Assembly: GCA_914767715.1 (NCBI GenBank)
Contig: OU612068.1
Location: 29,326,001-29,390,000 of the forward strand
Source of the DNA: Membranipora membranacea
Taxonomy: Eukaryota; Bryozoa; Gymnolaemata; Cheilostomatida; Membraniporidae
Direction of reading: 5' to 3'
DNA: 64,000 nucleotides
A program made the translations under genes and the position numbers. The notes below the pieces were generated by a model. That model was not told where the DNA came from, did no database searches, and saw nothing but the letters and a program-made list of their open reading frames with translations. Shown one piece after another: positions 13,559-61,814 of the stretch (its first letter is position 1; every line of letters begins with the position of its first letter).

Positions 13559-13595
13559 AGTCTGGACGAGTGAGTGGCACTCACTCGTCCAGACT
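13559..13595. repeat. Perfect hairpin, 16-bp arms
   Basis: AGTCTGGACGAGTGAG and its reverse complement are separated by 5 bases (TGGCA). No T-run follows. It is probably a mobile-element remnant. Confidence 0.75.
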
Positions 13596-14654: not shown

Positions 14655-14692
14655 GTCTCGATACTAACCTGCATGCAGGTTAGTATTGAGAC
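14655..14692. repeat. 38-bp palindrome
   Basis: GTCTCGATACTAACCTGCA is followed by its reverse complement with a single mismatched pair. Confidence 0.75.
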
Positions 14693-16625
14693 ATAGACAT
14701 TGTACTAGTATTGGTGTATTAGATTTGTGGCTACAGTGACATGTGGGTGAGTTTGATTTCACATCAATTTATTTATGCCCTGGAATAAAAGCAAAGTGAT
14801 CAGTGATAAAACAAAGATGCAAAATTGTATGGTATTACATTGATGTACCATTGAATGACATAAATTATAGTTTCAATATAGCATATGATAATTCTCAAAG
14901 TCATACGCTGTGAAGCATCTATTATAAATCCAGGGAATTAAATGAATGACAAAATGACAAGTGCAAAACTGTTTGATAGTGAACTTACAAATATTAGGAG
15001 GATAAATCCACCAATACGTAGAGCTGAGTAAATACTGATAGGTTATCTAAGACTGCCCGATTATCTAAATAGAATAGTAGCCTAATTAATTATCAAGTAT
15101 ATGGTAATGTCCGTCAAAAATGATAATTACATCAAATTGTGTATCGGCATATGGAATACAAAAGAAACACAGAATGTGAATTATTAAAAAGCAAAACACA
15201 TCGTCAGACTTACATCTTAACTATGCTCTGCGAATAATCAGAGTAGACGCTAATCATTACGATATCAGAGGTGACGACTAGCCGAGTGCGTTGGTGACGT
15301 TAGAGGGCTACTGGCATCCTATAACAAACGTGCTTTGGTAAGTGAATGTATAATAAAACTCGGAAGATTCGCATTACATACAATCGACGAATCAATGAAT
15401 ATCATAGTAAATTTACAGCTGGAATAATTTCAACCTAGCACATTAAATACATGGAGTAAAATACAGAGAGATGACTTACTATGCATATAGATGTTTCTCG
15501 CCTAATAGTGCTGTCATAATATGTTGGACGTTATAAAATATCCATGAATAAAGTTGGATGTAAATAATAAAGTGCCACAGAAATGGCTCAGCACTGGTGC
15601 CCTGCACAACGACTAGCGAAGAGCTTAGTCATGTTACAAGTTTTAGCTATTTTCTGTATTACCACATGAAAAGAAAGCTGAGTGATTACATCTAGGATCA
15701 TGTGGGGATGATTATAATGCTAGGTTATTATGGTTGAACAATAATCCATCCCAAAACAGACATGCCACTACAGCTAGCACCCATGGCAATGGGGTTGCTT
15801 CCATCAAGACTGGTAAATCCAAATCTTCCACATTAGTTCAAGGTTTTGAGATATTGGTGTTCCGTTGTGGTTATCTGCTGTGTATTAAGTGTGTCATAAT
15901 TTTCTCCTCTATATGACAACTGTTAGTGCAGGTATGATATGACAATTCATAGTAGAATTATATAAACCAATATCAAATGCTATATCAGGTAATATTTTGT
16001 CATGGGCTCAGTATTCGCAGAGAGTTACATCACATCATACCCTAAAACAAGTTTGTCTCTGTATTGGGGGAGTGATATTGAAAAACTTCACTACGTCTAC
16101 ACTGGGAAAAGTTATGGTCATGCGGCACAGAAAATAAGATAGTTAAGTGTGGCTACTAAAATTTAAAGATCTCCAGTTCTCACAGCTCACAGTCTGGAGA
16201 TTTTTACGAGATAAAGTGAGGCGGTGAGGAAAGGAGATGAGTCATGATAAACTGACCTTTTGATGGAAGCAGAGATGTACAACAGATAGCAACATCCACT
16301 TTACTCACACTCTTGATGAATAACCATCATCGTTTAATCTCCTTGAACTTGTGAAATTGTAACTTTAAAAGGCTCTTTACCATTTTATGTTTTATTAGAT
16401 TATTTAGATTGAGCGATCGATAAGCGAAATCCAATCTCTCTTTTTTCATGGGGAATCAAGAGTTTTTAGCATTTTATGATTTTTTTTTTAACTTTATTGG
16501 CATAATTTTCATTTGATGAGAATGTTTTACAAAATCAGCCTTCCAAGAAAACAAAAAAAGAGAAAAAAAACCAAAATCTTTCAATCAAGATGACGAAAAA
16601 GATAATCAGGAAAATTGAGTTTGAA

Positions 16626-17791
16626 TCATTTATAATTGATTATTGAACATAGATTATATGGAATATTGTTCAAAGTAGATGCTATGATATTATCTAGAAA
16701 GTTATTTGAAGTTGGGTGTAGTAGCTTGAACATGTCTCTCAGTTTGAAATTGCGTGAAAAATTAAAATGTTCTAACAAAAGTGTTGGAAATTTCTTGTAC
16801 ATTAATTGAAGTCCAGTAATGCTAGTAAAATATATGTTGAGCACTGGCAAAGGTAAAAGGTGTAAAGACCTTGATAATTTGTTACTTGGTACCAGGTGAT
16901 TAGGGATCTTTTGTATATTACATATCAACCTGCAGGCTCTCTTCTGGAGTAAAAATAAGTCTTTTAGTATATAGTTTGGTGATAGATTGTAGTAAATATT
17001 GATACCACTTATGATGTGGCAAAAAATAAAACGATGGTAAAATATAATAGCTGTTTTGTTGTTTTGTTTTGATTGATGGGCAAACGCAATTGAGGTCCAC
17101 GCCTGCCCTAAAAACCAAGGCTGGGCAGTTTTTTTGGAGAGCCCTCAGGAGCATATCACCCTGTACTATTTTGGAGCATATCACACTCCATTTTTTGGAG
17201 CAATCCCAACTTTTTGGAGTTGTCACATTCTATTCTTTTGCACTGGACACTTTGACGGTATGATATAACTTGCTTTATTTTTTGCGATGACTGTTTAAAT
17301 TTAAATTTTCTATTCATAAAAATTTAAAGAGTCTGATTTGAATGTCTAAATTTTTCGCAATAGATACAATAATCAAGCTCACCTCTAGGATTGACAGAGA
17401 ATCTGGGAGATTTATTGAGCAATTTTAGACACTGATGGTATATGATTGTTATATAGAGTTGGAGGTCACATTTTATCTAGAATAGGCAGATTACTTACAT
17501 AATAAATAATTACCGTTCAACTTGGATGGGAAGTTCAGTTGGGTGCATTGGACAATTTCTATTTGAGCTGAAAAAAGGAAGCTTACAAAAATTAAAATTG
17601 TGTGAAATACTACAGCTCCTTGGTGTCCAAACTTGTTGACAGGGGTCATAAAAAGCGTCATTGAGGTTTAGCACAGAATTGAACTCAGACAGCCTCGAAT
17701 TGACCAGTTCCAAAATAGGGAAAGCTCTGAATAGATACCACCGTACAAATCTATTATTCATATTGATAGCGATAGGGGTCCTGTAGGTCAT
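16626..17791 (-). pseudogene. Possible degraded non-LTR retrotransposon 3' part
   Basis: Three minus-strand frames (17791-17510, 17226-16918 and 16928-16626) follow each other with frame breaks. The residues from about 17050 to 16626 (KLYTKRLIFT, then RSLHLLPLPVLNIYFTSITG, then YKKFPTLLLEHFNFSRN) resemble the region after the RT domain in Jockey/CR1-type LINEs. No catalytic box is visible, so the call is weak. Confidence 0.35.
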
Positions 17792-18032
17792 TGGACGCTC
17801 AAAATGAGAGATAAAGGTTTACATAAATAGTCTGAGATACATGTAATACAATGTACATGACTTTAATGTTCTTATTTAATGAAAATGAACACAGCATACA
17901 TTTTTGAAACATAGCAACATAATTTAGCTGTGGAATAAGAACTCCAAAATTATAGTTGATGTTAGAGCCCAACCCGGCTGTTTGGGTGGTTAGAAATACA
18001 GGCTATGAGTCACTCTCTGTGACTTGTGGAGT

Positions 18033-21000
18033 TTATATATCTAGACTCATATCTGAGTGTCCATCAGTCACTGGGCGGTTCCCAAGACGGTCCAACGAGT
18101 GGTCTCCCGGGCGGGCCCCTGGAGGAGCTGGTTGTAAGTGTTGGACCCTGGTGGGTGTTTGTTGCGAGTATTGGACCCCTGTGGGTGTGGGTACTGGTTG
18201 TGGGTCTACTAGCCTCAGTTCCAGGGGCACTGGCTGGGAGCTGGTTGTTGCACTTGAAGTGTTTGCTGATTGAGGATACAGGTGAGGTTCTCCACCGCTG
18301 TGATAATTACCAGATTCCTCTGCTGAAAAGGAAATATTATGTTCATATCACAAAAATATCAAAAAAGTTTTCCATCCGATGAACTAGGCTTCATTTCGAT
18401 TTATTTAAGGTGTTTGATATGAGTGATTCCTATAATAAACAATCATCGATCGCTCCAAGTGCCTGACTTACCATTTGTTGTCTCAACAGATACTTGTTGA
18501 TGATACAGCTCAACTGGTTCTACAAATAGAGATGTAAGGAATGAAAAGACAACACCTAAATCACTCAGGATTATTTATTTTCCTTTTATTCATTTATGCT
18601 AATGCTATAAATTTAGTAGCTCAATGAAAACATTTGATACAATTAGATTACATTAGTTGAAAACACATGAAAACAAGTTCTCAGCTAAATAAGTTGCAGA
18701 ATGGCAACTTTCCTGATGACCACCCATGAAAAGTAGACCAACCAACCACTCCCACAGCCTGCCGGGCTACATGATAAGCACCAAGAGAGACTGAAATGCC
18801 AAAGCAAGAGTCATCGCAGTGCACAGACGCGCTGTGCAGACATGGGTTTGGTCTCAGATTAAGTTCAATTATTCAAAAGTTTCCTTCATTGTAAAAGTTT
18901 CACACCTGTGTAAAACAGAAACCTCCCATCCCGGTTGTTTTGTTGCTTTGTTGAGAATTGTCAGTAACTCATACCTGCATACATGTTCTCAGTGTCAATT
19001 TCAGCTCTATTCAGATGATTATACAGCAGGACAGAAGAGGGATCTCTATCAGCATCGGGATAAGTGCTTGCTCTGTGCTGACCAGACTCTCTGATTACTG
19101 GCAATGGATCAGGAGGTAGCAAATTGCTCTCATGGCCTTGGTTAAGAACTTTTCTGGTCCCCTGAGGGTTTTCCTACAAATAGAAACAAAATGATATCGT
19201 GATCTCCATATATGAGGAGCCCAAGACAATAAATCCTTATTTGGTCAAATACCGACCAAGTTAGCTGTTACTCCACTGTAAAACTTAAACCAGTGAGCTG
19301 CTCATCTCCATCTCATCTCATACTGACTGATTCTGGTGGATGCAACGATCAAGATGCTTTCACTAAACAGATAGGGATCCTAATAAAACTAATGTTTGTG
19401 GCTAAACATAAGATTTAAAGAAGGGTTTTTCGAATAACTTCCACAAGTAGGGTAAACATTTGCTTAAAATATAAAGCTAATGTTGCTTTTACACTGCAGA
19501 TTTTGCAGACAGATTTCTCCGCCATTTTTCATCAGATTTTTTGTTAATATAAGCTACATTAGGAGCAACTAAAAGCCTGTATTTTGTGACACTGACAGGG
19601 AAATCTGTTTGAAAAATCTGCATTGTAAATGCAGCTTCATTGTACAACAAATATATTGAGTATATCAAATTTAAATGGCTGTTTTTTTATTTTTCAGATT
19701 TTGATTTACTTTGATAAAAATGATGACCATTTTTAAATTTGTCACTATGTGGTATTGGTGACAATATAGGGAGCCATAATTACACTATAAGCCCAGCAAG
19801 AAATCCTTGCGATCTGTGATTTTCTCGACTTCACTTCATCAAATCAAAAATTCAATCATTTTAATCATTCATAATCTACGCAATAACTTGATCCATGTAC
19901 CCCTTATCCTAAACAAGGCCATGCAGCCAATACACTGAAATGGCAAATTGTAACAGATTCTTTATAAAAAAAACTCCATCCATTGATTCCGTTACCTGCT
20001 CGCACACCATCAAACTACCATAGCATGCGTGAACAACATGACTACGACTGAGTCGTTGGTTAAAATCCCAATGGTTGGTCACTCACCACATCGTGGCGGC
20101 AAAATAGTGTGCTAATTTGCTCTCAGTTTGTAGGCAGGTCGGAGCACACCTGGGGGTCCAACAACTCCCAGTAGTCAGTGGACTGCAGTGGGATTCGAAC
20201 CCACGACTTTCAACACTTGCATGATGAAAGTCCGGCGCTCTAACCACCGAGCCACCTCCTACTCCTATGAGAGGAGGATATTGGTTCACATTCCAGTGAC
20301 CTACCTTGGGAGCATACCAGTAAGACATAGGTCTAGAATTATTATAGGGAGCTGGTTGTGGAGTCGTCTGGTCTCGGAGGTGATGATAGCGTTGTGTTTG
20401 GCCTGGCTGGCTAATGTCTGGTGATTGTCCAGATGATACTTGTGGCTGAGAGGTCGGACTAGGTAGAGGAGGTCGTTGTTGTGCTGCACTCGGCCTTTGA
20501 TGACGCTGGCGCTTATTACGGAGAGGCACTTTGTTTGCCGTTAGATTAGCTATAGTATCACTATCTGAAATAACATGAAATTGAAGTGTAAGCTTCAACA
20601 TTGAACAACATGCAACTTTTAATGATAAATTCTACCCAAATTGGTCAACTATGCATCGGAAATTTTGAGGATGTTGATTATACTTTATTATTATTTTGTG
20701 GGAGCAAATACAGATTTTTTATTTTTAGTAGAGGATGCAAGAACTTACACTCTTTTGCCAAACTAAGGTTCATATTAGATAACATATTAACACTAATAGA
20801 ACCTCACCTGATGGATGACTGGAAGGAGGATAGGTATCAGAGTCACCGGTTACTAGTATAGGCCTATTATGATTTATGTCCGCAACAGTAACAGGTGCCT
20901 GCTCTCTATCAGACACAACATTAGGCCCTATATGATGTAACTCATGTTCTTCTATCACTACAATCATTATAATATCAGATAATCACTAGTCTGGGATTAG

Positions 21001-23222
21001 GGCCAAACAGTGTTGTAAGGTGTGGCATGATGTCACAGCAAACCATCCTAAACAACGTGTTGTAAATTTTGTAATGTTTCAAACGATTGGCAGATTATAC
21101 AATGGGCACGTTTCACAGCAGTACAGCATTAGAACAAGTTTGTTCCCTCTGTGATTGCGGAGGGATTTTGCAAATGTTTGGAATCGCCTCGCCACGCCTC
21201 GATACCAAACATTTGCAATATCTCTCCGCAACCACAGAGGGAACAAATTTACCCTTTACAAACCCTCACCTGCAATTATATAATAACATCACATGATGTA
21301 AGTGTATGATATCCATGCTTTCTCAGTAGGGTGGTTTCTCAAAGTCTTTCAAGTTTTACATTGCAGTCAATCTATTGATTCAAGAAAGTTCCACGCCCCT
21401 ACGGCATATGGTTTATTGTCATTTCGATCTCATCAGTATTTTCAATTGATTTTCAAGATGGTGTTCCACCGACTTGGAATCTTTTTGGAGGGTTTTCAGC
21501 AAAAACTAACTACCTCATTTATTGACTGCTGCTTTTTGCATTTTATATTGCCATATTATTATAGTAAGTTTTATTTCAGCGCATTACAGTTGTGAAGGGT
21601 TTATAGTAATAGTTATCATGGCAGGAAATAGAGGTCTGTATGAAGGTTTCTGTATGGAGGTTTCTGTAAGGAGATACCAGCAGAAAACCCTTGAATGATC
21701 GATACTTGTAAAAAATTTTCTAACTTGCTAACTGGCCACCTGAAGAGCAGACCAAAAATAATGACGAATATTTATAAAAGGGACTATGCAGACATCGGGT
21801 ATAAGGGGACTTAGTATCGTTTGTTTTTCATTTTTGATCACTGATGCTGAAAAACAAAAAGCAACTTGTTTTTCGTTTCTTTGTTCCAAAACAACAAATC
21901 ATTAAATGAAAATCGAGTCAATTTTTGTTTTTTGATTTTCTTATTGATGAAAACAAAAATATTGATATGATTTCATATTTCAACTTTGAATCACAGAAAA
22001 AAAAATTGAAAAAAGAATTGATTTTTGTTTTTCATTTTTGATGCTGCAAAACAAAACGAAAATCCAATTCCATATTTTGTTTTTCATTTTTTGTGTTGAA
22101 AGTCAAAAAACAAAAATCAAACATTGCAAATGTAGCCTTAATTGTTATTTTCCTCATGGGGATATACTGGGGTTTGCATTTCTTGCCGCTACCGGACGCT
22201 GCTGCCAAAACTGGGATGTCTGCCTGAGACTGGTATGCTGAGCTAATTTTGTCACGTCAAGTCAGCTTCTTTAAGGGGCTACTGCATGGCTTGTTTGCAT
22301 TGAGGGCCACACAATGTTACAGTGCTTGGGATGAAAGGTGTTCGGTGCAGGTGCTTAGTAGTGAATGTTGCTGATGCTGTTTGGCTGCTGCCTGGCGGCT
22401 GCCGCTTGTTTGATGCCGATTGTACGTTAAAGGGAAAACCAGGGTTTCAAACAACTTCTCATTGATTAATAGCAAATTGCACCTTCTGCATGGGGAAAAA
22501 GACAAAATCTAATTCGGATGAGTATTCAGCCAGGATTCTTGTGAAATATTTCATCCATCAGGTACTCAAACTCAGCTAAAATAGAATACCACAGAGCAGT
22601 TTCCTGTTCCTGTTATTATTTGGCCTTTGCTCTATCATCATTACATCAATGTCTTGCAACCTCCCCTGAACTGAAGTGTTACCCAGCTTAGAGTCAGCAA
22701 CTACTTTGAGTTTTGCATTGCGTAATGCACAAAGCTGATGCTGCCTAGCACATTATTCACTACTCCATAATGCATTGATGTGAAACCTTGGTTGCCCTAT
22801 AAGCTTGCTTGCCGTCTCTCAACACAAAAAATGAAAAACAAACTATTGAATTGGATTTTCGTTTTTCTTTTGCAGCATCAAAAATTAAAAACAAAAATCA
22901 ATCCATTTTTCAATTTTTGTTTTGTGATTCAAAGTTGAAAAATGAAAATAGGATTCATATCAATATTTCAGTTTTCGTCAATAAGAAAATCAAAAAACCA
23001 AAATTGACTCGATTTTCATATTTTGATTTGTTGTTTCGGAACAAAATACGGAAAACAAGTTGTTTTTTGTTTTTTTAACATCAATGCGCAGAAATGAAAA
23101 ACGATACTAAGTCCCCTTATAATCGGGGATGAGGAACATCTCGAACAAACATTGCAAAGAGGACACTCATATCATACCTGACTGAACTTTTCTTCTACCT
23201 GTGTTTCCGATTTGATATCCCA
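18033..23222 (-). CDS. Receptor exons 11-16: cytoplasmic tail
   Basis: Six exons include a 24-base microexon (23222-23199, GYQIGNT). Exons 11, 12 and 15 are phase 1-1 and could be alternative cassettes. The tail is Pro-, Gln- and Ser-rich with no folded domain. Candidate docking sites are RPPLPSP (SH3-type), QPAPYNN, MSYWYAPK, YNHL (tyrosine sorting type) and C-terminal MSLDI (class II PDZ-type). All of these are motif matches only. Confidence 0.75.
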
Positions 23223-26200
23223 CTAAAGAATAAGAATGGTATGATATACACAAAAGATTCAACCACAATCCTGCTATTGCAGCTGCATATATTATTTGGG
23301 GTATTGGGATGGCCCTCACTTGACTGAGAACGCCCAGATCTAACCAAAGGTTCTAATTTTGAGCTCAATTCAGGCACCGGACACTGCTAATGGTCAGATA
23401 GCTTCCAGCAAGGAATTAGAACCATCTAATAGTTTACAGATATTATGCTTTTACAATAACCATTGAGATGGAGGTCATCATAATTTTGAAGAAGTGAAAG
23501 CAGTAAACACCGAAAATCTTGGTAGGGATCACAGACAATAGACAACAAAAACTCACATAGACACACATAGAGAACACAAAACGTGCGGTTATGACATAAC
23601 GTCTACCCAGCACCAATACTCACTCTACTAAACATGAAACCTCCCATAGCCCCACAATCAATTAATATTTCAAACTAGATCATAATAGATAAAATTGCTA
23701 CATTAGTTAAAATCGGTACCGTATCATATCAGATCCTGCCCGCCCTGGAATATTGAAGAATATAAACATCCTTGAGTAGAATGGTATTGTAGGTGAGTTT
23801 ATACTAAGAAGTTTTTGGGTGTTTTTTAGCAAGAAGTAACTGAATCTGGATGATACTTTAATAATTATTAAAGTATCATCCAGATTCAGTTACTTCTTGC
23901 TAAAAAACACCCAAAAACTTGTGCTGACTCACCTTTCATACGATTTTCATGTTGAGAGCCAGGGAAGCATTTAAGCTTGATAAAGAAAGCAACTCCAATG
24001 ACAATAACAACGAAAAAAACTGCCACCAATGCAATGAGAATTATAGTCTGGGTACCCAATAACTCATCATCTTCTCCTCCGTCTGATGGCTTTTCTGAAC
24101 CGTCTTCTGTTGATGGTTGGACAGTTGCGATCTCAGAACACAGTGAACTGATTCCGCTGACAGCCGCATCATTGCGATAGAAGGTAGGTGAATTATGCTG
24201 GTTGATATTACGATCACTGTACTGGTATATAATGAGTCTTAAGTTTTCGGAGTTCATCTGAGTGACAGTGTAGTTCGGAAAACCTTGGTGAGATTTAGGG
24301 TTGAAGAGCGAGAATTTATCTGATGAATGCAGGTTTTTTTGGACCTGACAATTAAGCAGTTTATTTAAAAGTTCAGCTTTATCGGAGAGCAAATTCTCCA
24401 GATTGTGATGTGCAGTATTGTGAATCACTGTTGCCACAGCTTCCCAGGCTAGATAAATGTATTTGGCTACGATATAATCACTGTCTGATACACTAAGAGG
24501 AGGAATTCGACAATCTACTGCTGAAGATTTCAGACATTTGGGATTGCAAGGGACATGTTGTCTCGGCTCCCTGTGTGATGTATTTGGTAGGTAGCAGCTT
24601 TTCTGTTGCTGCCAGTAAAATGAGTAATACCGATTTATGAGAGATGTGTGATTATTGAATGTGTTGAGATATCTGGAGAATTCATCTTCTATATCATCCT
24701 TATTGCGCTCACCCCAATTAAAGTCCAATCGTTCATCGAGAGACAAGCTTCCTTTGAATTGCCTGACAAATTTTTTCTCTGATTCATCATCATTAATGGG
24801 CAGCCCGTGTACCATGAGAAACACCCGCCCCTCTCGACGCCAGTACACATCGACATCACAAATCTCTGAGAGGATAGGCCTTTTTATTTCTTCATCTATG
24901 AATGCGAGAACAGCTAGAGGCAGGTTTTCTGTTGTTGCTAGGATGCTGGCAGCACTCCGAGCTGATTCTAATGTATTGTCTACCTTGATAGATCGCTCAA
25001 CACAAACGTTGTGTGAGTCAGCGATCTCAGATATGATCTGCCATGCAGATTGCCCGTACGGACTGTTTGAGTATATCACTATGATTTTATTCAGGTGCAG
25101 ACTGTGTAAGACATCTAATGCTGCCGGTACTAGTTCAGTATTAGATGCTGACATACGAGCGATGGTTGTATACTGCTGGACGTTATCCATCCAGTGACTA
25201 AATGAACCAGGAGCTATTATAGGTATACTATACTTCGATAGATACCACTCCAATATCATTGTCTTACTGCTCTCTAAATCCCCTATAGCTACTATAATCT
25301 TTTCAATAGGAACTGTATGTTTATGGCCAAATACGTCGGTTAATTCAGCATTGTCTCCACCTGGGAAGATATTATCTAGAGTTCGAGACAGTTTGCGATC
25401 CGAGCCACAGTGTGGAATCAGTAAGGTACTCACATTTAGTCCCGTGATGTTTAAAAAATGTTCATAACCAAAGAAGAATGCCTGCATAGCCTGATATCCA
25501 TGTGTGGAAATGTTTGTTGTGCAGGTCAGGGAAGTGTCAGAGTCATACACAGAGTGGGTGCCTACAGTAAGAAATAAATAGAAAAGAGTGAAAGCTAAAA
25601 ATCATTCAATTGTACTTTCACTTCACTGTCTTCGTACTCTCTAGTGGACAATTTTGAATATATAAACCTTTCTGATATAATACTTATTCCAATAAATGTA
25701 TATATAAATAAATGTAATGGTCATTTTTGTTTCTGATGGTTGATAAAATCTTAGCCCCATTACAGAAAAGTCTAGTTCTGTACAGGCAACACCTGGATGT
25801 TGTGAGATGTGTGGCTGGGGCTGTATAGGACACTTCTTACAGCGCTCATCCGGCCCCTACAGCACCAGCAGCAAAACTGTATAGGCATTGACTGCTGTTA
25901 GACATGTCCCCTACAGCACCCGCCACATGTCCTACAACACCCGTCGCCAGCGCCAGTTTAGAACAGCATAAATTTTGGTAATAGCTCTCATTGATGCTTC
26001 AGTTTTCGGTTTGTCAGTTGTCAAGATTTTATTATTGTATTTTATAATTGATGTTCTACAATTTTTTTTCTTTCTTATTTTAAACTGTCACTGCGCTCAT
26101 TATGACATATCTAATAACATAGGTTTCTGTAACCAAAATTTTTCAATGATGTACACCAATGTCTGGTAATCCTGGTAACTTTGAGCATTTGTTTAACTTG

Positions 26201-29200
26201 GAAGCAGATTGTATAATCTACCACTGACCTATTATGACGTACTGATCAGAGCCAGGAGTGTACATGTATTCAGGTAAGTCATCCACAGTATCAGAGTAAC
26301 AATGACTGCAATCTACCTCACATCTTGAGTTTGTATCCACAGTAAAATTAACTTCAGTTGTCACTAACTTATTCTCACCATTCATATACGCTACCTGTAT
26401 ATACATGAAGATTTAAATAAAATAATGATATAGATGAATTGATTGAAACGTATATAGCAGATAAATGATACAAAGACCTTCTGAAGACCAAGAAAATAAA
26501 TGCATCTGATATACCTACAACTTCACAGATCATTGCCCTGCTGATCGCCCAATCGATAACTGTCATAGACACAAAAAACTCTTTTTTTTACACATAGTGT
26601 TCCCTGGAGAATCATATCAAAGTATATTGTTCATGGAGATCAACACATGACAATTATCTTAGTTTGAAAACCTTATGAAAAGTCTAACTCTTTCTTCAAC
26701 TACTAAATAACGGCAGATAGCTGTCAGATATATGACAGGTATATGACAGGTATATGGCAGGTATATCGCAGGTATATGGTAGGTATATGACAGGTATATG
26801 CAGGTATATGGCAGATATACGGCAGGTATATGACAGGTATATGACAGGTATATGACAAGTATATGACAAGTATGACAAGTATATGGTGGGGTCTCACCTG
26901 ATGTAGGCTGTGTTCTCCAGCACTTAGCTGATTTATACCGATAAGTTTCCTGTCCTCAGCCCTGTTTGATGTGTGAGCGAACATGGTGCTGTTGTCTGCA
27001 AGGCTGGAAAGAAGCCTGGTTGTAGCATCAGATATGCGCTGTATGGAATCAGAATATACATGCTCAACATCTTCACACGCACACACACACACAGATGTTA
27101 ATCTTTCCATCACATAAATGGGGAGGAGCTCAGTATGTTGGGAGGATGTTCTGATGAGATCTTTGATGTGGGAGCAGATAGATTGTGTGGTGTTGTGTGA
27201 TCCTGGCAGTCGCTCAATCCATATGATCTTAAGCTCAAGACTGTCAGCTTGTCTTGCCATAAGACCTTTTATCTTTCTCAAACTCCTAACCTCGGATGCT
27301 AGAATCAGGCTCTTGGACAATCCTGTCAGTGACGGCTCTTGTATGAAGGCATCCACAAACCAATATGCTAAAATGGATATGGCAAAAATCTAACACACTA
27401 CACACACTTCTATATCTATAATGTAAGCAAAAGAGTTAGCCGGTCCTGGCAGGCTTAAACGGCGGGGCTGAAAAAGGGGGTGCTCCAGTGATGTTATCTT
27501 GGCTAAAAATTCGCAGATTTAGGTATCAATACAGCTAGTCTTTTAATGACATATTATGAAAAAGTTTTAAATCCTTCAAATCACTGAAAAGTTAAAAACA
27601 TTTCATAGATTTATCTTCTCATTTCTTGGGATGGCATTACTCCTATACAGTAATCTGTCTAACCAAAGCTCCCAGGTCCTCACTCTTATGATCGTGTATG
27701 TCCTTGTCAATTATTGAACTATCATATGCACATTGACAAGTGTATAAAAGAAACAAAAAACACAGATATGTATATGTATACCTACACTGGACTACATATA
27801 TACCGTACTACCATACTGACTCTCGTGATCTGACTGGGCATGTAGATCACTGATAAACTAGGCTATCATTACCACAAAGTAGGTGTCGTAAGGCTAATTA
27901 TGCATCATGCGTGACTTGAATTTGCGCGTGTGCAAGAACAATGAGTTTAGTTTGGGTTCTGATTGCAATTTTGGTCTGGGGAAAAGGGATATCCCCTGCA
28001 TAAACTGCCAATCAAATTTAGCTAATGGTGACAATAGAAGATAACTCTTTCTAACAATTTCGCACGCATTTGGGAGTGTGCCACCAGAGCAGGTAGCCAA
28101 TCAGATGGCTTCGGAATTCCGAGATTCAATTTTGCAGAGATCAGTTCATGCCCAGAGCTGAGCATACGCAGAATGCCGTACTACAAATAATATACCAGAC
28201 TACATATAAACCATTCTACATATATACCAGCCTACATATATACCGGGATACATATATACTGTACTACAAATATACCGTTCTACATATATACCAGACTATA
28301 TAAATATATACCGGACTACATATATACCGGAATACATATATACCAGAATACATATATACTGTACTACAAATATACCGTTCTACATATATACCAGACTATA
28401 TATACCAGCCTACATATATACCGGACTACATATATACCAGACTATGTATATACTGGATGGAATATATATATATATATATATACACATTTGTGCAATAAAG
28501 TGTCATATATTATATATCCCACTATTGTCCCTTAAAAACCCAGGACAATGAGTGATTCATATATGTATATATATATATAAATAGTGGCTATCAGTGTGTA
28601 GGGGATATCTTTGCATTGGAGTTGTCCGACCATGTCAGGCTATTTTATCTACCATTAATTACTATTGGGTTAAGGATGCCCAACATGATTATTCAAGAGG
28701 ATTTAAGACATGATATTTTTGTGGGTCATAGAAAATGACTCCTTATTTTTGAGTGACACTTAGTTGGGGCCAAATACACACAGATGACACTTAAAAGCAC
28801 AGATTTGAATCTACATATTATATATACCGAACTATGTATATACCAGACTAAGTATATACTGGAATATATATATATATACCGGACTACATACATACCGTGC
28901 TGAGCATTGCCGAAGAATATAATCCCTGTAGCATCATTCTGTTTGACATCTGTGGCCAGATTTGAGTAGACCCTCCGATAGTAAGCTTCTGTCTCATTGA
29001 TCGGAATAGACTTATTTAGCCCAACACAGACACCTCCAATCTAAAATACCACAATATATAGATGAAGATGAATTATTTACCTGGTGTACATCCTGATGCC
29101 TGTAGCTTCACTGTACTTGCATTGTGAGGATGTGTAGGTAATTGATCATTGGTAGCTATTTTATTTATCGTAGTTTTTCTCTTACATGCGACACTGCTAT

Positions 29201-32200
29201 TTATTGGAGGTTTGGATGTTTTGTGATTGAGGCTGTCATATAACCAGTGCAGGCTGTCGGGGTGGGTGGGTGGGTGGGGGAGGCTGGTAGGCTAATGGTT
29301 TGACCTTCAACTAGGACCTACGAGTGGGAGCTGGTGATATGTTGAGCAGGTAGTTTCGCACAGTATTTGTTCACATAAAGTAAGCCTAATGGCTGAGATG
29401 AGGAAGTAAAAAACAGATGTGTCGCGTACTCCCCAAATGATGAAATAGGTTGAATTAATAAGAGCAAGCTATGACATCGGTACATATGACATATCAGCTG
29501 ATAGCTCACCTGTAACTGCTCAGCCATATAAGAAGCCATTCTCTGACTATCATCGATGTAAATCATTATCACATATCTCCAGTCAAACTTATCCTTTATC
29601 AGACTCATAAGAAGCTGTAATAATCCAAAATCAGTCATGGAACCATTCCATGACAAGCCAAGGGAAGGGAAACTAAAATTTCCAAGTTATTCCAAGTGTG
29701 GTTAAATCCTGTTGAAACAACCATTTACTCAGCTTTATATTTACTCAGCCACACTGGTATTGTAATCAAAATTGCCGGAGTGGTTATTGCTGCTTTTGAA
29801 AAGAAATGGGGAAGTTTAAAATCCCCCTTTTGTGTCGCAATCAATGGTCATTATAGTTCAAAGCTGTTGGTATGCGGCTTAACCTGATGTTGATTTTTTA
29901 ATATATTGGATTGAAGTCATGGTATGTGGTAGGTTGGTAATATAGATATTATATATATATATATATAAAATAGTACTTGTATAGGCATTTTTAAGAAATA
30001 TCTTTTTCATGCTGGGGACAATTTAGAATAAGACTCATGATGTTAGTATACCGGAGTTTATAAGAAAGAAAGTGATTATACGACACTTGATTGTTATACA
30101 TTGACACAAGATGGTGACACAGTCCTCATGATTTGAGTCTGCTATTTCTGCACATAATGAGATGATGGTTTCAATATTATAACTTACATCTATCTCTGCC
30201 TCGTCAGAGGTCTTATATGATAAGAAGTTATCAGATCTGCTCGACTCATAAGTCTGACTATGTTCAGAGGAGAGGATGGGAATATGTGTACCAGATAAAA
30301 CTGAGTTCAGCAACGCAGGATCATACGTCTCAAAACTCCCCAAGATTCCTAAAAACAACACAGCCAGAATCAAACTCAGATTGGTTAAACAACTCGTCCA
30401 TAACTGCACAAGTAACTGCATCTTGTTTCACCATTCACCCCATAAAATGAATAACTATTATATTCAACAATTTGGTTAAAATTTTATTTTATTTTTCAAT
30501 AGCGGCAGGCAGCCGGCAGATCAAAAGACCGACTCACCGATGGTAGATGAGCTGTTGCAGTTGTCTGTCCATGAGCATAGAGGTATGTGATCCACTATGT
30601 GCTTCACTGCTAAACTCTCGGTGTTACAGCTGTACTCAACAATCAGATCTATAACACAAATATCTACCCTATACCCTGGACTTGAGGGGATGCGGGAAGC
30701 TGGTAACTTGGTCATCAGTTTTGGAACAGAGACAGAGTTTATTGAGTATATAGGATTTTATCAAGAAAAAACGCCATCACGGTTTTGTCAGTGTAAAACT
30801 TAAAAACACATGCAGCATAATCTGCTTCAAAAGATAACTAACTAAAGATAACATACCTTAGCTTCAGATAATACCTAACTAGATCTATATGGAAACTTAT
30901 TTCAATATTCATCTGAGTGAGCATGAGCTTTTACATTTACGTAATAATACCTTTACCTGCGTGGTTTAACATTCTCAGGCTACAGTTCAGGCGTCTCCAA
31001 TCTGACATTACCTCAAAAGACAGAAATTGCTTCTGTGAGGTTCATTTGGAAATATTCAATCGAGGACTTACCTACTTGACTGGTGTTTGTATTTTCGTTA
31101 TGCCTGAGGACTAAATATTGAGCAGTAAGAACCTGTACAGCTTGCTCGGCAAGGTAAGATATAAGGGTATTACCATCCCGCTCCATTGACTCACAAAGCT
31201 CAGATATGTATACAACTCTCAGTCTATTCTGCTGTTGCGAGTGGAGGACCTCAGGTTGAGGCGTTGAGCTATTAACATCTGGGATCACAGAAATATCATC
31301 AGTAAAATTATTCTGTGAATCTAATAAAATAAAATTTATAACTGAATATTAGCAATCATCGGGTTTCGATTTCATCTTCAGTATCAGCCCATTAGGCCTT
31401 CAGTTGTTTTTGGGAAAAGCAGAGCTTGTATAAAAAACACGATATCCATAACAATATAAGAATCTAGCCTGGGCAGGCTGTCGTGTCAACAGCCTGCCCA
31501 GGCTAATTAGAATCTCTGTTTTGGTAAAATTGCAGGTAAAGCGAGTAATGGCTGGTCACATTGTCCCAGACGACCATCCCAGTCTATGTGAACATAACAC
31601 AATCCCAGTCTGTCTGAGTCTGTCTGGGACAGTAGCTAGAAAGCGTCAAACTATGCTATGTGAACCACACATTGGGATGATCTGGGATGATCTGGGACTT
31701 TCTGGGACGATCCTAAACAATGTGAACATTATCCCAGCACTTTCCCAGACAGAAACATTATTGCTAGTCTGGGATGAATTTTACAATGTGAACATATGAC
31801 TGGGACCATCTGGGATAAGCATCTGGGATAAGCATCTGGGATGGCATCCAAATGTCATCTGGGACAATATGAACCACGCTCAAGTGTGCGAACTCCAAAC
31901 AATGAACGGTGTTTATAATTCTCATACTGTAAAGGGAAGTTGGTTTATCTAACTAAAGTGGCGTCAGCAATATTTTTCTAACACTCAAAACATACAAGTA
32001 GTTTACAGCTTAGAACACTTGGAACACATTATCGCATGTTTTGGGAGATAAGGGTGATGATATACTTTACCATTCTCACTTGAAAATGACAACTGTTCAG
32101 TCCAACCTGTACATTCACTCTATTCATACAATTAATTATTTCTTTCACAATATTATATATCATATTATGCAATAACTCATTATTAGGCTCATAGTGGTCG

Positions 32201-34124
32201 GGGATTGTTTTCATTTTGCAACCTATAACCACTGATTCAATAGGGTTACCCTACCAAGACAAACAGCCCAAAAGTTTTGTGCAGTAAGCTGGTGAAGACC
32301 CACATTTGGGCATCCCAATGTTTAAATTACACCGAGATTGTAAACCGCTGTACCTCCTGCCTAAATTCAGAAGTATCTTCTAAACTTATATTCACAAATA
32401 AACTTGAAATTCATAAATATTGTTCTCCGGGAATATTGTTCTCCGGTGATATATCGCCTTTTCAGTTTCTCAGGAACTACTTGTCCCATTTCAAAAATTC
32501 CTTCACTGACACGTTGCTAGTAGTCTGACTTGTGTTTAATATCACAAATTTTTTCAAACCGCATGTTCCTAACTTGATTAATTGTACATTAACTAAAATA
32601 CATTGAATACATATAGGCAGCAATGGGCAAAATGATGCAATAAATTACGTTATGCAGTATTACATGCAAAGCACATTGTGTACAACAATGGATCACCTTT
32701 TTTGGGTGATTGCTTAGCATGGAAAGAGAAATGTTTATGCTCATAACTTCTCTACTACTGAATTTATCATCAAACGCCACGATTGAAACCTTGGAAATGC
32801 TCTCTAGTTTAATGGAAGCTAGTGTGTATAACATGTTGTTTAACCTATTTTCAGTTTTTTGGCTGGAAAAAAGTGCATGTTTTGGACCAAATAAAGCTGG
32901 TTCAGCCACAAAAATCCAAATATCTCAAGATATAAAGCCATAATCAACAATCGCTTCGATCAAAACCTAGACAATCTCCTGTTGTTCATCATGCTGACAA
33001 CAAATTTGACTGACATCTTTCTGAATTTCTGATTTTTGGCTGGAAAATTTTGACCTAAATTGGTTAACATTTGGGTTATTATCTGTTACAGTTGTGACAA
33101 CCAGGATCTGTAAGCTGGTAAGATTATTGATTGAAGTGACAGTACAAGACCAAAATGGTATAATGAATCGGAAATATTAGTTTCTTCATTATTGGGGTCG
33201 CATGTAATGAGGGGTCAGAAATGGCCCTATTACCATTGCAAAAATCGATTTCAAGTCTCGAAGACAGGAGGCATAAAATCATAAAGTTTCACCAAAATAT
33301 CACTCCTCCAGTTAGCGCCATGCCTCCTCTATATGGTGAAAGCATAAACTAATCAAATTCCTCAAAAACAAGGCACAGAGAGCACAATTTAAAAAGGGCA
33401 CTTTTTGCCCCAAAATGAACTTCCAGAGGTCACTGCGACTCATCGTCAAATATTTGGGAGGTTTAAACTGTGAAAATAACTATTAGACATAATCACCAAT
33501 ACAATATTAAAAAGTTTTAAAAAGCGATTTATCATGTTCATGCCCAGAAGCAGTTTTTTCATATCCAATAAGCTTTTACTCAGCATTAATTAATATAAAC
33601 TCTGTCTTATATAATTATGCATTTGTGGAATCGGCCGTATAAGTCCTTTGGAGACCCCTTTATTCAGACACTGCCAGAGAGGCATCAAGTGTAAATTTGG
33701 TTGACCATACAATGAAGTTTAGAAAAAAATCTGAGCATAGAACACATTTTCTGCTGATAAAAGAACAATAAGATGGCCTCACCTAGTCGCTTTGTACGTG
33801 AAAAGATAAACAAAGAAGTATTTTTACAAAATGTCTTGTAGAAAACTGTCTAAGCCCCAGGAAGTATGGTAATTGGGATATCTTAGTCTTCCCGATACTA
33901 GTATTTTTTAGCACTGTATCTAGCATCAGAGATTTTCCTTTGAAAATAAAGCCCTATAGACTTAATATACTAAGTCTATGTATAGCCCTCATCAGTTCTA
34001 GTAAAACCCAAGAGCATCAGTGCAAAAGAAAAAAGAGATCAGTTTAATTAAATTAGCGCTTACCTGACAATACAAGAAAACTGAGTAGAACAGTACAGAT
34101 TACCAAAAACATCCTTCCAATCAT
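18033..34124 (-). CDS. Tandem Venus-flytrap single-pass receptor, 1387 aa
   Basis: Sixteen exons join with consistent phase: 34124-34064, 31320-31072, 31001-30957, 30699-30538, 30348-30188, 29614-29510, 29040-28896, 27367-26898, 26394-26229, 25561-23933, 23222-23199, 20957-20808, 20564-20305, 19173-18975, 18519-18472 and 18322-18033. Residues 1-20 are a signal peptide (MIGRMFLVICTVLLSFLVLS). Residues about 30-520 form a first ANF-receptor/class C-type Venus-flytrap (KTSDEAEI and FDWRYVIMIYIDDSQRM match the PSD..Q and F.W..V blocks). At about 515 the DQYVIIG-THSVYD join, followed by STHGYQAMQAFFFGYEHF, restarts a second Venus-flytrap (to about 1000). One helix (about 1027-1049) follows, then a 338-residue tail with RPPLPSP, many Tyr-containing motifs and C-terminus LDI. 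There is no 7TM, kinase or cyclase. A ligand (amino acid-like or peptide) and signalling partners are inference only. Confidence 0.85.
20085..20268 (-). mobile_element. tRNA-derived SINE, copy 1
   Basis: Read on the minus strand it begins GGTGGCTCGGTGGTTAGAGC (A-box-like) and has a perfect B box (GGGTTCGAATCCC). The body is ACTGACTACTGGG, then CCCAGGTGTGCTCCGACCTG and AAACTGAGAGCAA, shared with the copy at 38140-38340. It lies in the receptor intron between exons 13 and 14. Confidence 0.85.
21137..21251. repeat. Hairpin MITE, about 50-bp arms
   Basis: AAGTTTGTTCCCTCTGTGAT and GCAAATGTTTGG on the left match, inverted, CCAAACATTTGC and CCACAGAGGGAACAAATTT on the right, with a short GC-richer loop. 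It lies in the receptor intron between exons 11 and 12. Confidence 0.75.
21802..23119. mobile_element. 1.3-kb foldback element bounded by TA
   Basis: The left end TAAGGGGACTTAGTATCGTT is the exact reverse complement of the right end. Each arm is about 300 bp, rich in AAACAAAAAT and imperfect. The central 690 bp are unique. The flanking TA on both sides fits a Tc1/mariner-type target duplication. No transposase frame is seen, so it is non-autonomous. It sits in the receptor intron between exons 11 and 12, just past the microexon. Confidence 0.85.
23809..23920. repeat. Perfect 112-bp palindrome beside the membrane-exon donor
   Basis: Two 56-base arms with no spacer, centred between 23864 and 23865 (ATAATTAT). 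I paired the bases near the centre and both ends and found no mismatch. The outer edge is 13 bases from the splice donor of receptor exon 10. Confidence 0.95.
23933..25561 (-). CDS. Receptor exon 10: second Venus-flytrap module and membrane helix
   Basis: This one 1629-base exon contrasts with the eight small exons of module 1, so module 2 is not a recent copy of module 1. It encodes the LTCTTNISTHGYQAMQAFFF start, IPIIAPGS, HLNKIIVIYSNSPYGQSAW and FSLFNPKSHQGFPNYTV blocks, then an acidic GGEDDE linker and the membrane helix TIILIALVAVFFVVIVIGVA with KLK after it. The donor TATGAAAG|GTGAGT is only 13 bases before a perfect 112-bp palindrome. If the intron is kept, the frame adds 14 residues and stops at 23886. 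Confidence 0.9.
26229..31320 (-). CDS. Receptor exons 2-9: first Venus-flytrap module
   Basis: Eight exons encode the first ligand-binding module. Lobe 1 runs from RVVYISELCE to GSFETYDPALLNSVLS. The hinge-like KTSDEAEIDLLMSLIKDKFDW and IGGVCVGLNKSIPINETEAY lead into lobe 2, which closes with SLHQVAYMNGENKLVTTEV and a CEVDCSHC cysteine cluster. Exons 2, 3 and 4 start and end in phase 1 and could be skipped in frame. Exons 2-8 are duplicated at 57412-61814; exon 9 is not. Confidence 0.85.
26724..26885. repeat. 11-bp minisatellite (GACAGGTATAT), receptor copy
   Basis: About 14-15 imperfect units of GACAGGTATAT, with GGC and CGC variants and one shortened unit. It starts about 13 bases inside the intron after receptor exon 8. 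The copy at 57095-57395 is nearly twice as long. Confidence 0.9.
28195..28480. repeat. Degenerate ACTACATATATACCGG array
   Basis: About 15-16-bp units of the type CTACATATATACCGG, CAGACTATATATA and TACAAATATACCGTT, ending in an AT microsatellite. It lies in the receptor intron between exons 7 and 8. A shorter version is at 58690-58930. Confidence 0.8.
31465..31505. repeat. TAGCCTGGGCAGGCT hairpin
   Basis: TAGCCTGGGCAGGCTGT pairs with ACAGCCTGCCCAGGCTA around a 7-base loop. The duplicated copy is near 61959-61999, and a relative with a GGGAGAATTCTCCC insert is at 47037-47095. Confidence 0.75.
31540..31885. mobile_element. CATCTGGGA-rich MITE, copy 2
   Basis: Same family as 3420-3835, in receptor intron 1. 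It is about 114 bp shorter than its duplicated counterpart at 62035-62500, which carries a repeated head segment. Confidence 0.7.
34064..34124 (-). CDS. Receptor exon 1: start codon and signal peptide
   Basis: The ATG at 34124 opens MIGRMFLVICTVLLSFLVLS and the exon ends TTGTCAG|GTAAGC in phase 1, which matches exon 2 at 31320. The start lies about 500 bp downstream of the MOGS stop codon on the same strand. Intron 1 is 2.7 kb. Confidence 0.8.
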
Positions 34125-57395: not shown

Positions 57396-57411
57396 TATGG
57401 TGGGTTCTCAC

Positions 57412-60400
57412 CTGATGTAGGCTGTGTTCTCCAGCACTTAGCTGATTTATACCGATAAGTTTCCTGTCCTCAGCCCTGTTTGATGTGTGAGCGAACATGG
57501 TGCTGTTGTCTGCAAGGCTGGAAAGAAGCCTGGTTGTAGCATCAGATATGCGCTGTATGGAATCAGAATATACATGCTCAACATCTTCACACACACACAC
57601 AGATGTTAATCTTTCCATCACATAACTGGGGAGGAGCTCAGTATGTTGAGAGGATGTTCTGATGAGATCTTTGATGTGGGAGCAGATAGATTGTGTGGTG
57701 TTGTGTGATCCTGGCAGTCGCTCAATCCATATGATCTTAAGCTCAAGACTGTCAGCTTGTCTTGCCATAAGACCTTTTATCTTTCTCAAACTCCTAACCT
57801 CGGATGCTAGAATCAGGCTCTTGGACAATCCTGTCAGTGACGGCTCTTGTATGAAGGCATCCACAAACCAATATGCTAAAATGGATATGGCAAAAATCTA
57901 ACACACTACACACACTTCTATATCTATAATGTCAGCAAAAGAGTTAGCCGGTCCTGGCAGGCTTAAACGGCGGGGCTGAAAAAGGGGGTGCTCCAGTGAT
58001 GTTATCTTGGCTAAAAATTCGCAGATTTAGGTATCAATACAGCTAGTCTTTTAATGACATATTATGAATAAGTTTTAAATCCTTCAAATCACTGAAAAGT
58101 TAAAAACATTTCATAGATTTATCTTCTCATTTCTTGGGATGGCATTACTCCTATACAGTAATCTGTCTAACCAAAGCTCCCAGGTCCTCACTCTTATGAT
58201 CGTGTATGTCCTTGTCAATTATTGAACTATCATGTGCACATTGACAAGTGCATAAAGGAAACAAAAAACACAGATATGTATATGTATACCTACACTGGAC
58301 TACATATATACCGTACTACCATACTGACTCTCGTGATCTGACTGGGCATGTAGATCACTGATAAACTAGGCTATCATTACCACAAAGTAGGTGTCGTAAG
58401 GCTAAGTATGCATCATGCGTGACTTGAATTTGCGCGTGTGCAAGAACAATGAGTTTAGTTTGGGTTCTGATTGCAATTTTGGTCTGGGGAAAAGGGATAT
58501 CCCCTGCATAAACTGCCAATCAAATTTAGCTAATGGTGACAATAGAAGATAACTCTTTCTAACAATTTCGCACGCATTTGGGAGTGTGCCACCAGAGCAG
58601 GTAGCCAATCAGATGGCTTCGGAATTCCGAGATTCAATTTTGCAGAGATCAGCTCATGCCCAGAGCTGAGCATACGCAGAATGCCGTACTACAAATAATA
58701 TACCGGACAACATGTAAACCATTCTACATATATACCAGCCTACATATATACCGGAATACATATATATACTGTACTACAAATATACCGTTCTACATATATA
58801 CCAGACTATATATATATACCGGACTACATATATACCGGAATACATATATACCAGAATACATATATACTGTACTACAAATATACCAGCCTATGTATATACT
58901 GGATGGAATATATATATATATATATATATACACATTTGTGCAATAAAGTGTCATATATTATATATCCCACTATTGTCCCCTTAAAAACCCTGGACAATGA
59001 GTGATTCATATATGTATATATATATATAAATAGTGGCTATCAGTGTGTAGGGGATATCTTTGCATTGGAGTTGTCCGACCATGTCAGGCTATTTTATCTA
59101 CCATTAATTACTATTGGGTTAAGGATGCCCAACATGATTATTTAAGAGGATTTAAGACATGATATTTTTGTGGGTCATATTAAATGACTCCTTATTTTTG
59201 AGTGACACTTAGTTGGGGCCAAATACACACAGATGACACTTAAAAGCACAGATTTGAATCTATATATTATATATACCGAACTATATATATACCAGACTAA
59301 GTATATACTGGAATATATATATATGTATATATATATATACCGGACTACATACATACCGTGCTGAGCATTGCCGAAGAATATAATCCCTGTAGCATCATTC
59401 TGTTTGACATCTGTGGCCAGATTTGAGTAGACCCTCCGATAGTAAGCCTCTGTCTCATTGATCGGAATAGACTTATTTAGCCCAACACAAACACCTCCAA
59501 TCTAAAATACCACAATATATAGATGAAGATGAATTATTTACCTGGTGTACATCCTGATGCCTGTAGCTTCACTGTATTTGCATTGAGAGGATGTGTAGGT
59601 AATTGATCATTGGTGGCTATTTTATTTATCGTAGTTTTTCTCTTACATGCGACACTGCTATTTATTGGAGGTTTGGATGTTTTGTGATTGAGGCTGTCAT
59701 ATAACCAGTGCAGGCTGTCGGGGTGGGTGGGTGGGTGGGGGAGGCTGGTAGGCTAATGGTTTGACCTTCAACTAGGACCTACGAGTGGGAGCTGGTGATA
59801 TGTTGAGCAGGTAGTTTCGCACAGTATTTGTTCACATGAAGTAAGCCTAATGGCTGAGATGAGGAAGTAAAAAACAGATGTGTCGCGTACTCCCCAAATG
59901 ATGAAATAGGTTGAATTAATAAGAGCTAGCTATGACATCGGTACATATGACATATCAGCAGATAGCTCACCTGTAACTGCTCAGCCATATAAGAAGCCAT
60001 TCTCTGACTATCATCGATGTAAATCATTATCACATATCTCCAGTCAAACTTATCCTTTATCAGACTCATAAGAAGCTGTAATAATCCAAAATCAGTCATG
60101 GAACCATTCCATGACAAGCCAAGGGAAACTAAAATTTCCAAGTTATTCCAAGTGTGGTTAAATCCTGTTGAAACAACCATTTACTCAGCTTTATATTTAC
60201 TCAGTCACACTGGTATTGTAATCAAAATTGCCGGAGTGGTTATTGCTGCTTTTGAAAAGAAATGGGGAAGTTTAAAATGCCCCTTTTGTATCGCAATCAA
60301 TGGTCATTATAGTTCAAGGCTGTTGGTATGCGGCTTAACCTGATGTTGATTTTTTAATATATTGGATTGAAGTCATGGTATGTGGTAGGTTGGTAATATA

Positions 60401-61814
60401 GATATTATATATATATATATACATATATATATATAAAATAGTACTTGTATAGGCATTTTTAAGAAATATCTTTTTCATGCTGGGGACAATTTAGTATAAG
60501 ACTCATGATGTTAGTATACCGGAGTTTATAAGAAAGAAAGTGATTATACGACACTTGATTGTTATACATTGACACAAGATGGTCACACAGTCCTCATGAT
60601 TTGAGTCTGCTATTTCTGCACATAATGAGATGATGGTTTCAATATTATAACTTACATCTATCTCTGCCTCGTCAGAGGTCTTATATGATAAGAAGTTATC
60701 AGATCTGCTCGACTCATAAGTCTGACTATGTTCAGAGGAGAGGATGGGAATATGTGTACCAGATAAAACTGAGTTCAGCAACGCAGGATCATACGTCTCA
60801 AAACTCCCCAAGATTCCTAAAAATAACACAGACAGAATCAAACTCAGATTGGTTAAACAACTCGTCCATAACTGCACAAGTAACTGCATCTTGTTTCACC
60901 ATTCACCCCATAAAATGAATAACTATTATATTCAACAATTTGGTTAAAATTTTATTTTATTTTTCAATAGCGGCAGGCAGCCGGCAGATCAAAAGACCGA
61001 CTCACCGATGGTAGATGAGCTGTTACAGTTGTCTGTCCATGAGCATAGAGGTATGTGATCCACTATGTGCTTCACTGCTAAACTCTCGGTGTTACAGCTG
61101 TACTCAACAATCAGATCTATAACACAAATATCTACCCTATACCCTGGACTCGAGGGGAGGGGGGAAGCTGGTAACTTGGTCATCAGTAAACAGGATAACA
61201 CACGATTCAATATTTTGGAACAGAGACAGAGTTTATTGAGTATATAGGATTTTATCAAGAAAAAACGCCATCACGGTTTTGTCAGTGTAAAACTTAAAAA
61301 CACATGCAGCATAATCTGCTTCAAAAGATAACTAACTAAAGATAACATACCTTAGCTTCAGATAATACCTTACTAGATCTATATGGAAACTTATTTCAAT
61401 ATTCATCTGAGTGAGCATGAGCTTTTACATTTACGTAATAATACCTTTACCTGCGTGGTTTAACATTCTCAGGCTACAGTTAAGGCGTCTCCAATCTGAC
61501 ATTACCTCAAAAGACAGAAATTGCTTCTGTGAGGTTCATATGGAAATATTCAATCGAGGACTTACCTACTTGACTGGTGTTTGTATTTTCGTTATGCCTG
61601 AGGACTAAATATTGAGCAGTAAGAACCTGTACAGCTTGCTCGGCAAGGTAAGATATAAGGGTATTACCATCCCGCTCCATTGACTCACAAAGCTCAGATA
61701 TGTATACAACTCTCAGTCTATTCTGCTGTTGCGAGTGGAGGACCTCAGGTTGAGGCGTTGAGCTATTAACATCTGGGATCACAGAAATATCATCAGTAAA
61801 ATTATTCTGTGAAT
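57412..61814 (-). pseudogene. Duplicated receptor exons 2-8 (partial Venus-flytrap module)
   Basis: Exon copies: 61814-61566, 61495-61451, 61167-61006, 60816-60656, 60075-59971, 59501-59357 and 57875-57412. All keep their acceptors, donors, phases and open frames. Changes include Arg-Ile to Pro-Leu at the start of exon 4, one Ile to Ser in exon 8, a silent change in exon 3 and a two-codon loss in the exon 8 CA repeat. Exon 9, the second module, the membrane helix and the tail are not present downstream. Exon 1 would lie past the window end. Called a pseudogene because it is a fragment, although nothing in the exons is broken. Confidence 0.75.
58690..58935. repeat. Degenerate ACTACATATATACCGG array, duplicated copy
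   Basis: Counterpart of 28195-28480 with fewer units and a longer terminal AT microsatellite. Confidence 0.8.

Follow-up and report, generated by a model that had tools for sequence, protein, structure and literature searches.

What does the minus strand of this bryozoan locus (positions 34124 to 18033 of the window, by which we mean the whole 64,000-nucleotide stretch of Membranipora membranacea contig OU612068.1 analyzed here) encode: one receptor with two flytrap modules on a single helix, or something more familiar? Flytrap modules are known to couple to 7TM regions, kinases, cyclases, and channels. Here, two such modules (VFT1 and VFT2) appear in tandem ahead of one helix. Our best explanation, to which we give a probability of roughly 0.55, is that one gene encodes a single-pass receptor comprising a signal peptide, a divergent VFT1, a Cys-containing linker, a VFT2 of the mGluR/CaSR/T1R type, a helix, and a tail, and that its output involves no enzyme of its own. 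It would probably be a non-enzymatic tandem-flytrap animal receptor, working via partners or ligand capture.

The gene model, rebuilt from the sequence and by script, contains 14 exons encoding 1356 amino acids (Table 1), arranged as a hydrophobic N-terminus, VFT1 (exons 2 to 8), VFT2 and the helix (exon 9), and a tail. We observe AG acceptors and GT donors where required, with matching phases across all 14 exons. The initial annotation had proposed a phase-consistent spliced gene of 16 exons and 1387 residues; the phase-consistent splicing holds, but the numbers we can support are 14 and 1356, and the junction it placed between exons 9 and 10 (26229 to 25561) corresponds to exons 8 and 9 of our model. 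The 31 additional residues of the longer version could be accounted for by two short tail exons in phase, and the 45-nt in-phase segment 23222-23178 is a candidate for one of them. Codon usage does not separate the proposed exons from random open frames, of which 0.16 to 0.37 score as well as exon 8 and the tail exons.

Table 1. Exons of the proposed receptor gene and of its partial second copy (positions within the window).
Feature	Position	Strand	Basis
Exon 1: start codon and hydrophobic, signal-peptide-like stretch MIGRMFLVICTVLLSFLVLS	34064..34124	-	GT donor, phase 1; putative signal function
Exon 2 (VFT1)	31072..31320	-	Spliced model; retained in copy at 61566-61814
Exon 3 (VFT1)	30538..30675	-	Spliced model, second copy; within Pfam match
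Exon 4 (VFT1)	30188..30348	-	Spliced model, second copy; within Pfam match
Exon 5 (VFT1)	29510..29614	-	Spliced model, second copy; within Pfam match
Exon 6 (VFT1)	28896..29040	-	Spliced model, second copy; within Pfam match
Exon 7 (VFT1, second half)	26898..27367	-	Spliced model, second copy (with in-frame 6-nt deletion); initial residues within Pfam match
Exon 8: proposed final VFT1 strands, Cys-containing linker, first VFT2 strand (DQYVIIG)	26229..26394	-	Spliced model; putative strands; outside duplicated block
Exon 9: VFT2 and transmembrane helix, one 1629-nt exon	23933..25561	-	Pfam 3.5e-16; relatives P0001-P0003
Transmembrane helix, about residues 999-1022	23988..24059	-	Hydropathy; helix 501-530 in exon-9 structure model
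Exon 10 (tail, provisional)	20808..20957	-	Spliced model; donor in one chain-search result, acceptor there 20905
Exon 11 (tail, provisional; may extend to 20087)	20305..20564	-	Acceptor in both chain-search results, which run to 20087
Exon 12 (tail, provisional)	18975..19173	-	Spliced model; absent from chain-search results
Exon 13 (tail, provisional)	18472..18519	-	Spliced model; absent from chain-search results
Exon 14 (tail, proposed stop, provisional)	18033..18322	-	Acceptor in one chain-search result, which splices at 18072 and ends at 17324
Second copy, exons 2-7	57412..61814	-	blastn and pairwise comparison of copies
Individual copy exons	61566-61814, 61006-61143, 60656-60816, 59971-60075, 59357-59501, 57412-57875	-	

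Several repeats accompany the gene. Beside the donor of the VFT2 exon, 12 nt into intron 9, lies a perfect 112-bp palindrome (23809-23920; two 56-nt arms with no spacer), and the same intron holds an inverted repeat pair of ~300 bp (21800-22102 and 22816-23121, 87% identical, ~700 bp apart). In addition, a dispersed repeat, which we take to be tRNA-derived and SINE-like, occurs at 20117-20266 and, in opposite orientation, at 38137-38292 (79% identity); ARAGORN called no tRNA within the 64-kb window.

The two modules are each recognized when searched separately against Pfam ANF_receptor: VFT1 at 1.1e-11 (44.9 bits, profile positions 25-199 of 353) and VFT2 at 3.5e-16 (59.6 bits, positions 51-257 of 353). 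The two scores exceed the curated cut-off of 25.4 bits, and the two hits are separate, as the initial annotation had predicted. On the product, the VFT1 match extends over about residues 112-296, across exons 3 to 7, and thus both relies on and supports four proposed splices. No Pfam or PDB match reaches exon 8, not even when exons 8 and 9 are aligned to the PDB together, and NCBIfam gave two weak matches, far under cut-off and neither of them relevant. Kyte-Doolittle hydropathy (19-residue windows) exceeds 1.5 at starts 997-1016, after VFT2, and elsewhere at starts 1-6, with one marginal start at 702; the sole strong hydrophobic segment beyond the N-terminus is in exon 9. The two flytraps and one helix of the earlier description fit the Pfam and hydropathy results, with the hydrophobic N-terminus a putative signal peptide. 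An AlphaFold2 model of exon 9, built from a four-row alignment, was poor (mean pLDDT 45, pTM 0.31), with a helix at 501-530 (block pLDDT 54, 76, and 66); the first rows of a Foldseek search with it are mGlu chains at a TM of about 0.2, which is only agreement in type and not proof of fold. When aligned to each other by hhalign, VFT1 and VFT2 reach a probability of 0.2%, which is not significant, and because of this weak alignment and their unlike intron structures, a recent internal duplication is an unlikely source of the two modules.

Searches with exon 9 at E<=10 returned exactly three proteins, P0001, P0002, and P0003 (98%, 52%, and 38% identity), each of which carries an ANF_receptor domain, and an alignment-profile search at the same threshold returned these three with none added. 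Together with exon 9 of the window they share 144 invariant columns out of 567, and in each of the four sequences the only hydrophobic segment lies near the end. P0001, encoded on another public contig, and P0002 continue beyond the exon-9 donor as KGE and KGM, as would be expected of an AAAG/GT donor at the same position; the end of P0003 differs there. P0001 terminates just beyond the donor, and the frame of the window continues to 23886. P0003 joins exon 9 at the same residue (GTD versus GTH), and the stretch preceding this point could be intron and acceptor. Judged by their sequences, these relatives point to conservation of the membrane-proximal half (VFT2 and helix), not of VFT1 alongside it. 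With the full-length product, 7990 candidates were scored and none reached E<=1e-3; the minimum length admitted in that search exceeds that of P0001-P0003, so that they could not have appeared there. Finally, tblastn against prokaryote genomes and viral contigs yielded no relatives (60 and 31 pattern matches only).

Only VFT2 can be assigned to the class C-type flytraps, as the best PDB match of VFT1 (T1R3, E 0.24-0.58) is not significant by itself. VFT2 gives 85 PDB matches at E<=1, and its profile 83 at E<=0.1; the best 60 of the 85 and the best 60 of the 83 are mGlu, T1R, and CaSR chains, led in the profile search by mGlu5 (E 1.7e-10, residues 62-348, with a common N..(W/Y)...WQ...C...C stretch). 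Kinship of VFT2 with NPR or GABA-B flytraps was also considered and set aside, neither chain type occurring in the best 60 of either search. In mGlu1 numbering, the alpha-amino-acid site consists of Ser165, Thr188, Asp208, Tyr236, and Asp318 (accessible text of PMC2680970). Mapped through one alignment of VFT2 with mGlu5, these positions read, in the window, P0001, P0002, and P0003, respectively, S,S,S,S for Ser; F,F,V,Y for Thr; N,N,N,Y for the first Asp; Y,Y,Y,E for Tyr; and G,G,G,D for the last Asp. The window itself thus retains Ser and Tyr, and since only one of the five positions is invariant, a plain alpha-amino acid is an unlikely VFT2 ligand.

Beyond the helix, the initial annotation had seen no recognized output domain, and our searches agree. 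Pfam detects no 7TM, tyrosine kinase, kinase-homology, guanylyl cyclase, or adenylate cyclase catalytic domain in exon 9, in the modelled tail, or in the three minus-strand frames of 10699-23933 (with stops written as X), a scan that is weak for intron-split domains; the NCD3G cysteine-rich domain, which mGluR-type receptors have between flytrap and membrane, finds no match at E<=1, and at this threshold the modelled tail and the three frames give no Pfam match of any kind. The same frame scan over 25562-34124 also missed the intron-split VFT1, and elsewhere it detected GH63N and RabGAP-TBC pieces. The tail itself is likely long and probably disordered; the final 338 residues of the model contain 12.7% P, 9.8% S, and 8.0% Q. 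Phase-consistent open exons are more abundant past exon 9 than chance would give: in an exon-chain search, the best chain scored above every one of 60 dinucleotide shuffles at both penalties used, with best chains that end at 17324 instead of 18033 and boundaries that are partly common with the 14-exon model. This search requires three of the four donor consensus bases and misses exon 12 because its gtatga donor fails that rule, and exon 13 because its 48 nt fall below the intron penalty. As the boundaries and end of the chains differ from the model, tail sequence and stop are provisional.

The initial annotation had thought it plausible that SH3-, Tyr-, and PDZ-type motifs recruit signalling partners, an idea that finds no support in the modelled tail. 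We count no strict SH3 consensus site and no WW, NPxY, or dileucine motif; YxxPhi occurs twice (shuffle mean, 2.19), YxN once (0.69), and 14-3-3-like sites twice (P 0.073), while the class-II PDZ-like C-terminus LDI (P=0.056) depends on the provisional stop. An SH3/Tyr/PDZ output code was discarded, motif counts being at shuffle level, and signalling via partners recruited to the tail is possible but unsupported. The strongest alternative, which overlaps one branch of our best explanation, is that the tail is signal-less and the protein a clearance or decoy receptor, which would bind ligand and take it away or, by forming a dimer with a class C GPCR, dim the latter. It draws on the lack of any enzyme found, on these motif counts, and on intron 9, the retention of which would stop the frame at 23886 and leave a receptor with almost no tail. 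However, the tail region is more open than shuffles (0 of 60 reach it) and so is probably long, and we hold this alternative to be a serious possibility that we do not favor.

We infer that VFT1 and VFT2 belong to a single transcript. Exon 8 runs into a GT donor (gtcagt) in the correct phase and contains neither a stop nor a helix. Upstream of exon 9, its frame meets a TGA (25604-25602) before any ATG, and the 40 nt from this TGA to the exon resemble an acceptor tract. In flytraps of the CaSR/T1R type, a Cys heads the first helix; exon 9 has only 13 residues ahead of this Cys, so that the first strand of the VFT2 core should derive from an upstream exon. By the anatomy of class C flytraps, the end of exon 8 looks like this strand, and its start like the final strands of VFT1. 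The first two of these features weigh against two adjacent genes, namely, a VFT1 gene, soluble or partial, and an independent single-pass receptor with one VFT that starts from exon 9, each of them ordinary by itself and NPR-C-like in its layout. Such an arrangement would agree with VFT1 being divided over exons 2 to 8 and VFT2 forming a single exon, with exons 2 to 7 standing alone as a copy at 57-62 kb, and with no database protein that joins VFT1 and VFT2 having been found. Given the open end of exon 8 and the missing start of exon 9, we consider it unlikely.

The copy of VFT1 exons deserves separate attention. The copied block (57016-64000, matching 26646-33363) reaches the end of the window and breaks in intron 7, where it adjoins the RabGAP-TBC match on the opposite strand; because it ends between exons 7 and 8, a rearrangement occurred beside the VFT1/VFT2 junction, which counts against the single-gene reading. 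For exons 8 to 14, blastn finds no similar copy within the 64-kb window. Over the copied exons, 5 of 1262 aligned bases differ (four synonymous changes and one nonsynonymous), in addition to one in-frame 6-nt deletion, giving a dN of 0.0010 and a dS of 0.0146, with reading frame and splice sites kept. Introns 2 to 6 differ at 38 of 3086 positions (Fisher P 0.0105 against the exons), a contrast that is weaker than its P value suggests because the part of intron 1 in the block (10/2043) differs about as little as the exons do. Few as the changes are, the second copy speaks for the VFT1 exon boundaries and for mild constraint. The break in intron 7, the uncopied exons 8 to 14, and the few substitutions between copies would also suit a decaying or misassembled locus, in which the copies are tandem-placed haplotypes or stem from a recent duplication, with a gene that may be broken. 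Since the main copy keeps an unbroken frame over 1356 codons, and a protein of another public contig matches exon 9 at 98% identity, we regard such a locus as quite improbable.

In both copies, the frame of exon 7 (26724-27389 and 57307-57897) stays open past the exon, through a ATATACCTGTC-like minisatellite whose reading is repetitive and hydrophobic (IYLSYTCHIPV...) and which is probably intronic.

We think it highly improbable that the gene encodes a class C GPCR or enzyme receptor with 7TM, kinase, or cyclase exons that escaped detection downstream or that lie in an alternative isoform. In favor of this reading, VFT2 is closest to mGluR/CaSR/T1R flytraps, which normally sit on a 7TM, the frame scan has little power for split domains, and the gene end is unsettled (18033 versus 17324). 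Against it, a single helix comes after VFT2 both in the window and in three of three relatives, neither NCD3G nor 7TM was detected, and the 13 kb downstream on the same strand give no Pfam match.

Other genes and gene fragments were observed in the window. Directly upstream of the receptor gene and on the same strand, Pfam matches mark a glycosyl hydrolase family 63 gene (34628-42489), presumably of the mannosyl-oligosaccharide glucosidase type. The plus strand carries a fibrinogen C-terminal domain (5480-6267, two open frames) and RabGAP-TBC pieces (56145-56781, two frames), the latter with an upstream PH-like match far under cut-off. The glycosyl hydrolase, fibrinogen, and RabGAP-TBC matches agree with an animal origin of the sequence. 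On the minus strand we find a reverse transcriptase match (RVT_1, 868-1803; 34.1 bits versus a cut-off of 29.6) and an open frame (10414-10704) with PPPY and PPAY motifs and no Pfam match.

How might a single-pass receptor with two flytraps work? Class C receptors, Venus kinase receptors (VKRs), and natriuretic peptide receptors are dimers whose flytraps close on ligand. The receptor proposed here would likewise dimerize via its flytraps, with two of them stacked per chain, and ligand would close VFT2, VFT1, or both, the ligand of VFT2 probably being no plain alpha-amino acid. As no enzyme was found, output would arise either through rearrangement of a partner receptor or, in a manner functionally like NPR-C, through the capture and uptake of ligand. 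From dimerization onward, we infer every step by analogy. We put at even odds the broader claim of a new animal receptor family, in which one helix carries a divergent flytrap in tandem with a class C-type flytrap and there is no enzyme, the class C flytrap has become detached from the 7TM, and its ligand site no longer serves plain amino acids. If true, the enzyme-less tandem flytrap would be an added receptor layout for animals, and would hint at how class C flytraps come to be reused away from the 7TM. It would also provide a natural two-site ligand sensor whose partner could be sought directly.

Among known systems, the class C GPCRs (mGluR, CaSR, and T1R) have flytraps that VFT2 matches, but they carry NCD3G and 7TM domains, neither of which was found by Pfam here, whereas the bryozoan model has an extra distal flytrap and a single helix. 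NPR-C has one flytrap, one helix, no enzyme, and a very short tail. Natriuretic peptide receptors are alike in joining a flytrap to one helix and, in the case of NPR-C, in having no enzyme, but the present model has two flytraps and a longer tail, and no NPR chain is among the best 60 of the 83 PDB matches to VFT2 at E<=0.1. The flytraps of the bacterial sensor kinases BvgS and EvgS are of the periplasmic SBP_bac_3 kind. In the accessible accounts of these kinases, tandem flytraps outside the cell membrane feed one protein, as they would here, with a histidine kinase as output; accessible text on CdgH provides a further bacterial precedent for tandem flytraps.

The VKRs are likewise invertebrate single-pass flytrap receptors, and their Ser165-like residue is kept here (accessible text of PMC2680970). 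According to the same text, they combine a GABA-B-like flytrap with a tyrosine kinase, and the other residues of their amino-acid site are chemically compatible with amino-acid binding; in contrast, VFT2 is mGluR-like, four of its five site residues vary, and no kinase was found. No animal protein with tandem flytraps on one helix appears in the titles and opening abstract lines listed by text searches of the open PMC literature, and such a receptor is not described in the accessible parts of a choanoflagellate GPCR survey (PMC12716839) or of an Amphimedon GPCR paper (PMC4302439). The initial annotation's view that the layout, with no enzyme, belongs to no standard animal family agrees with the literature searched. 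The receptor-type adenylate cyclases of Trypanosoma brucei have two flytraps and then a single helix, the layout proposed in our spliced model, to which we liken them by layout only and not by sequence (accessible text of PMC6027212). Like BvgS, EvgS, and CdgH, they end in an enzyme, here a cyclase, of a kind not detected in our model. Tandem flytraps on a single helix are thus already known in eukaryotes from the trypanosome cyclases, as the accessible text of PMC6027212 describes them.
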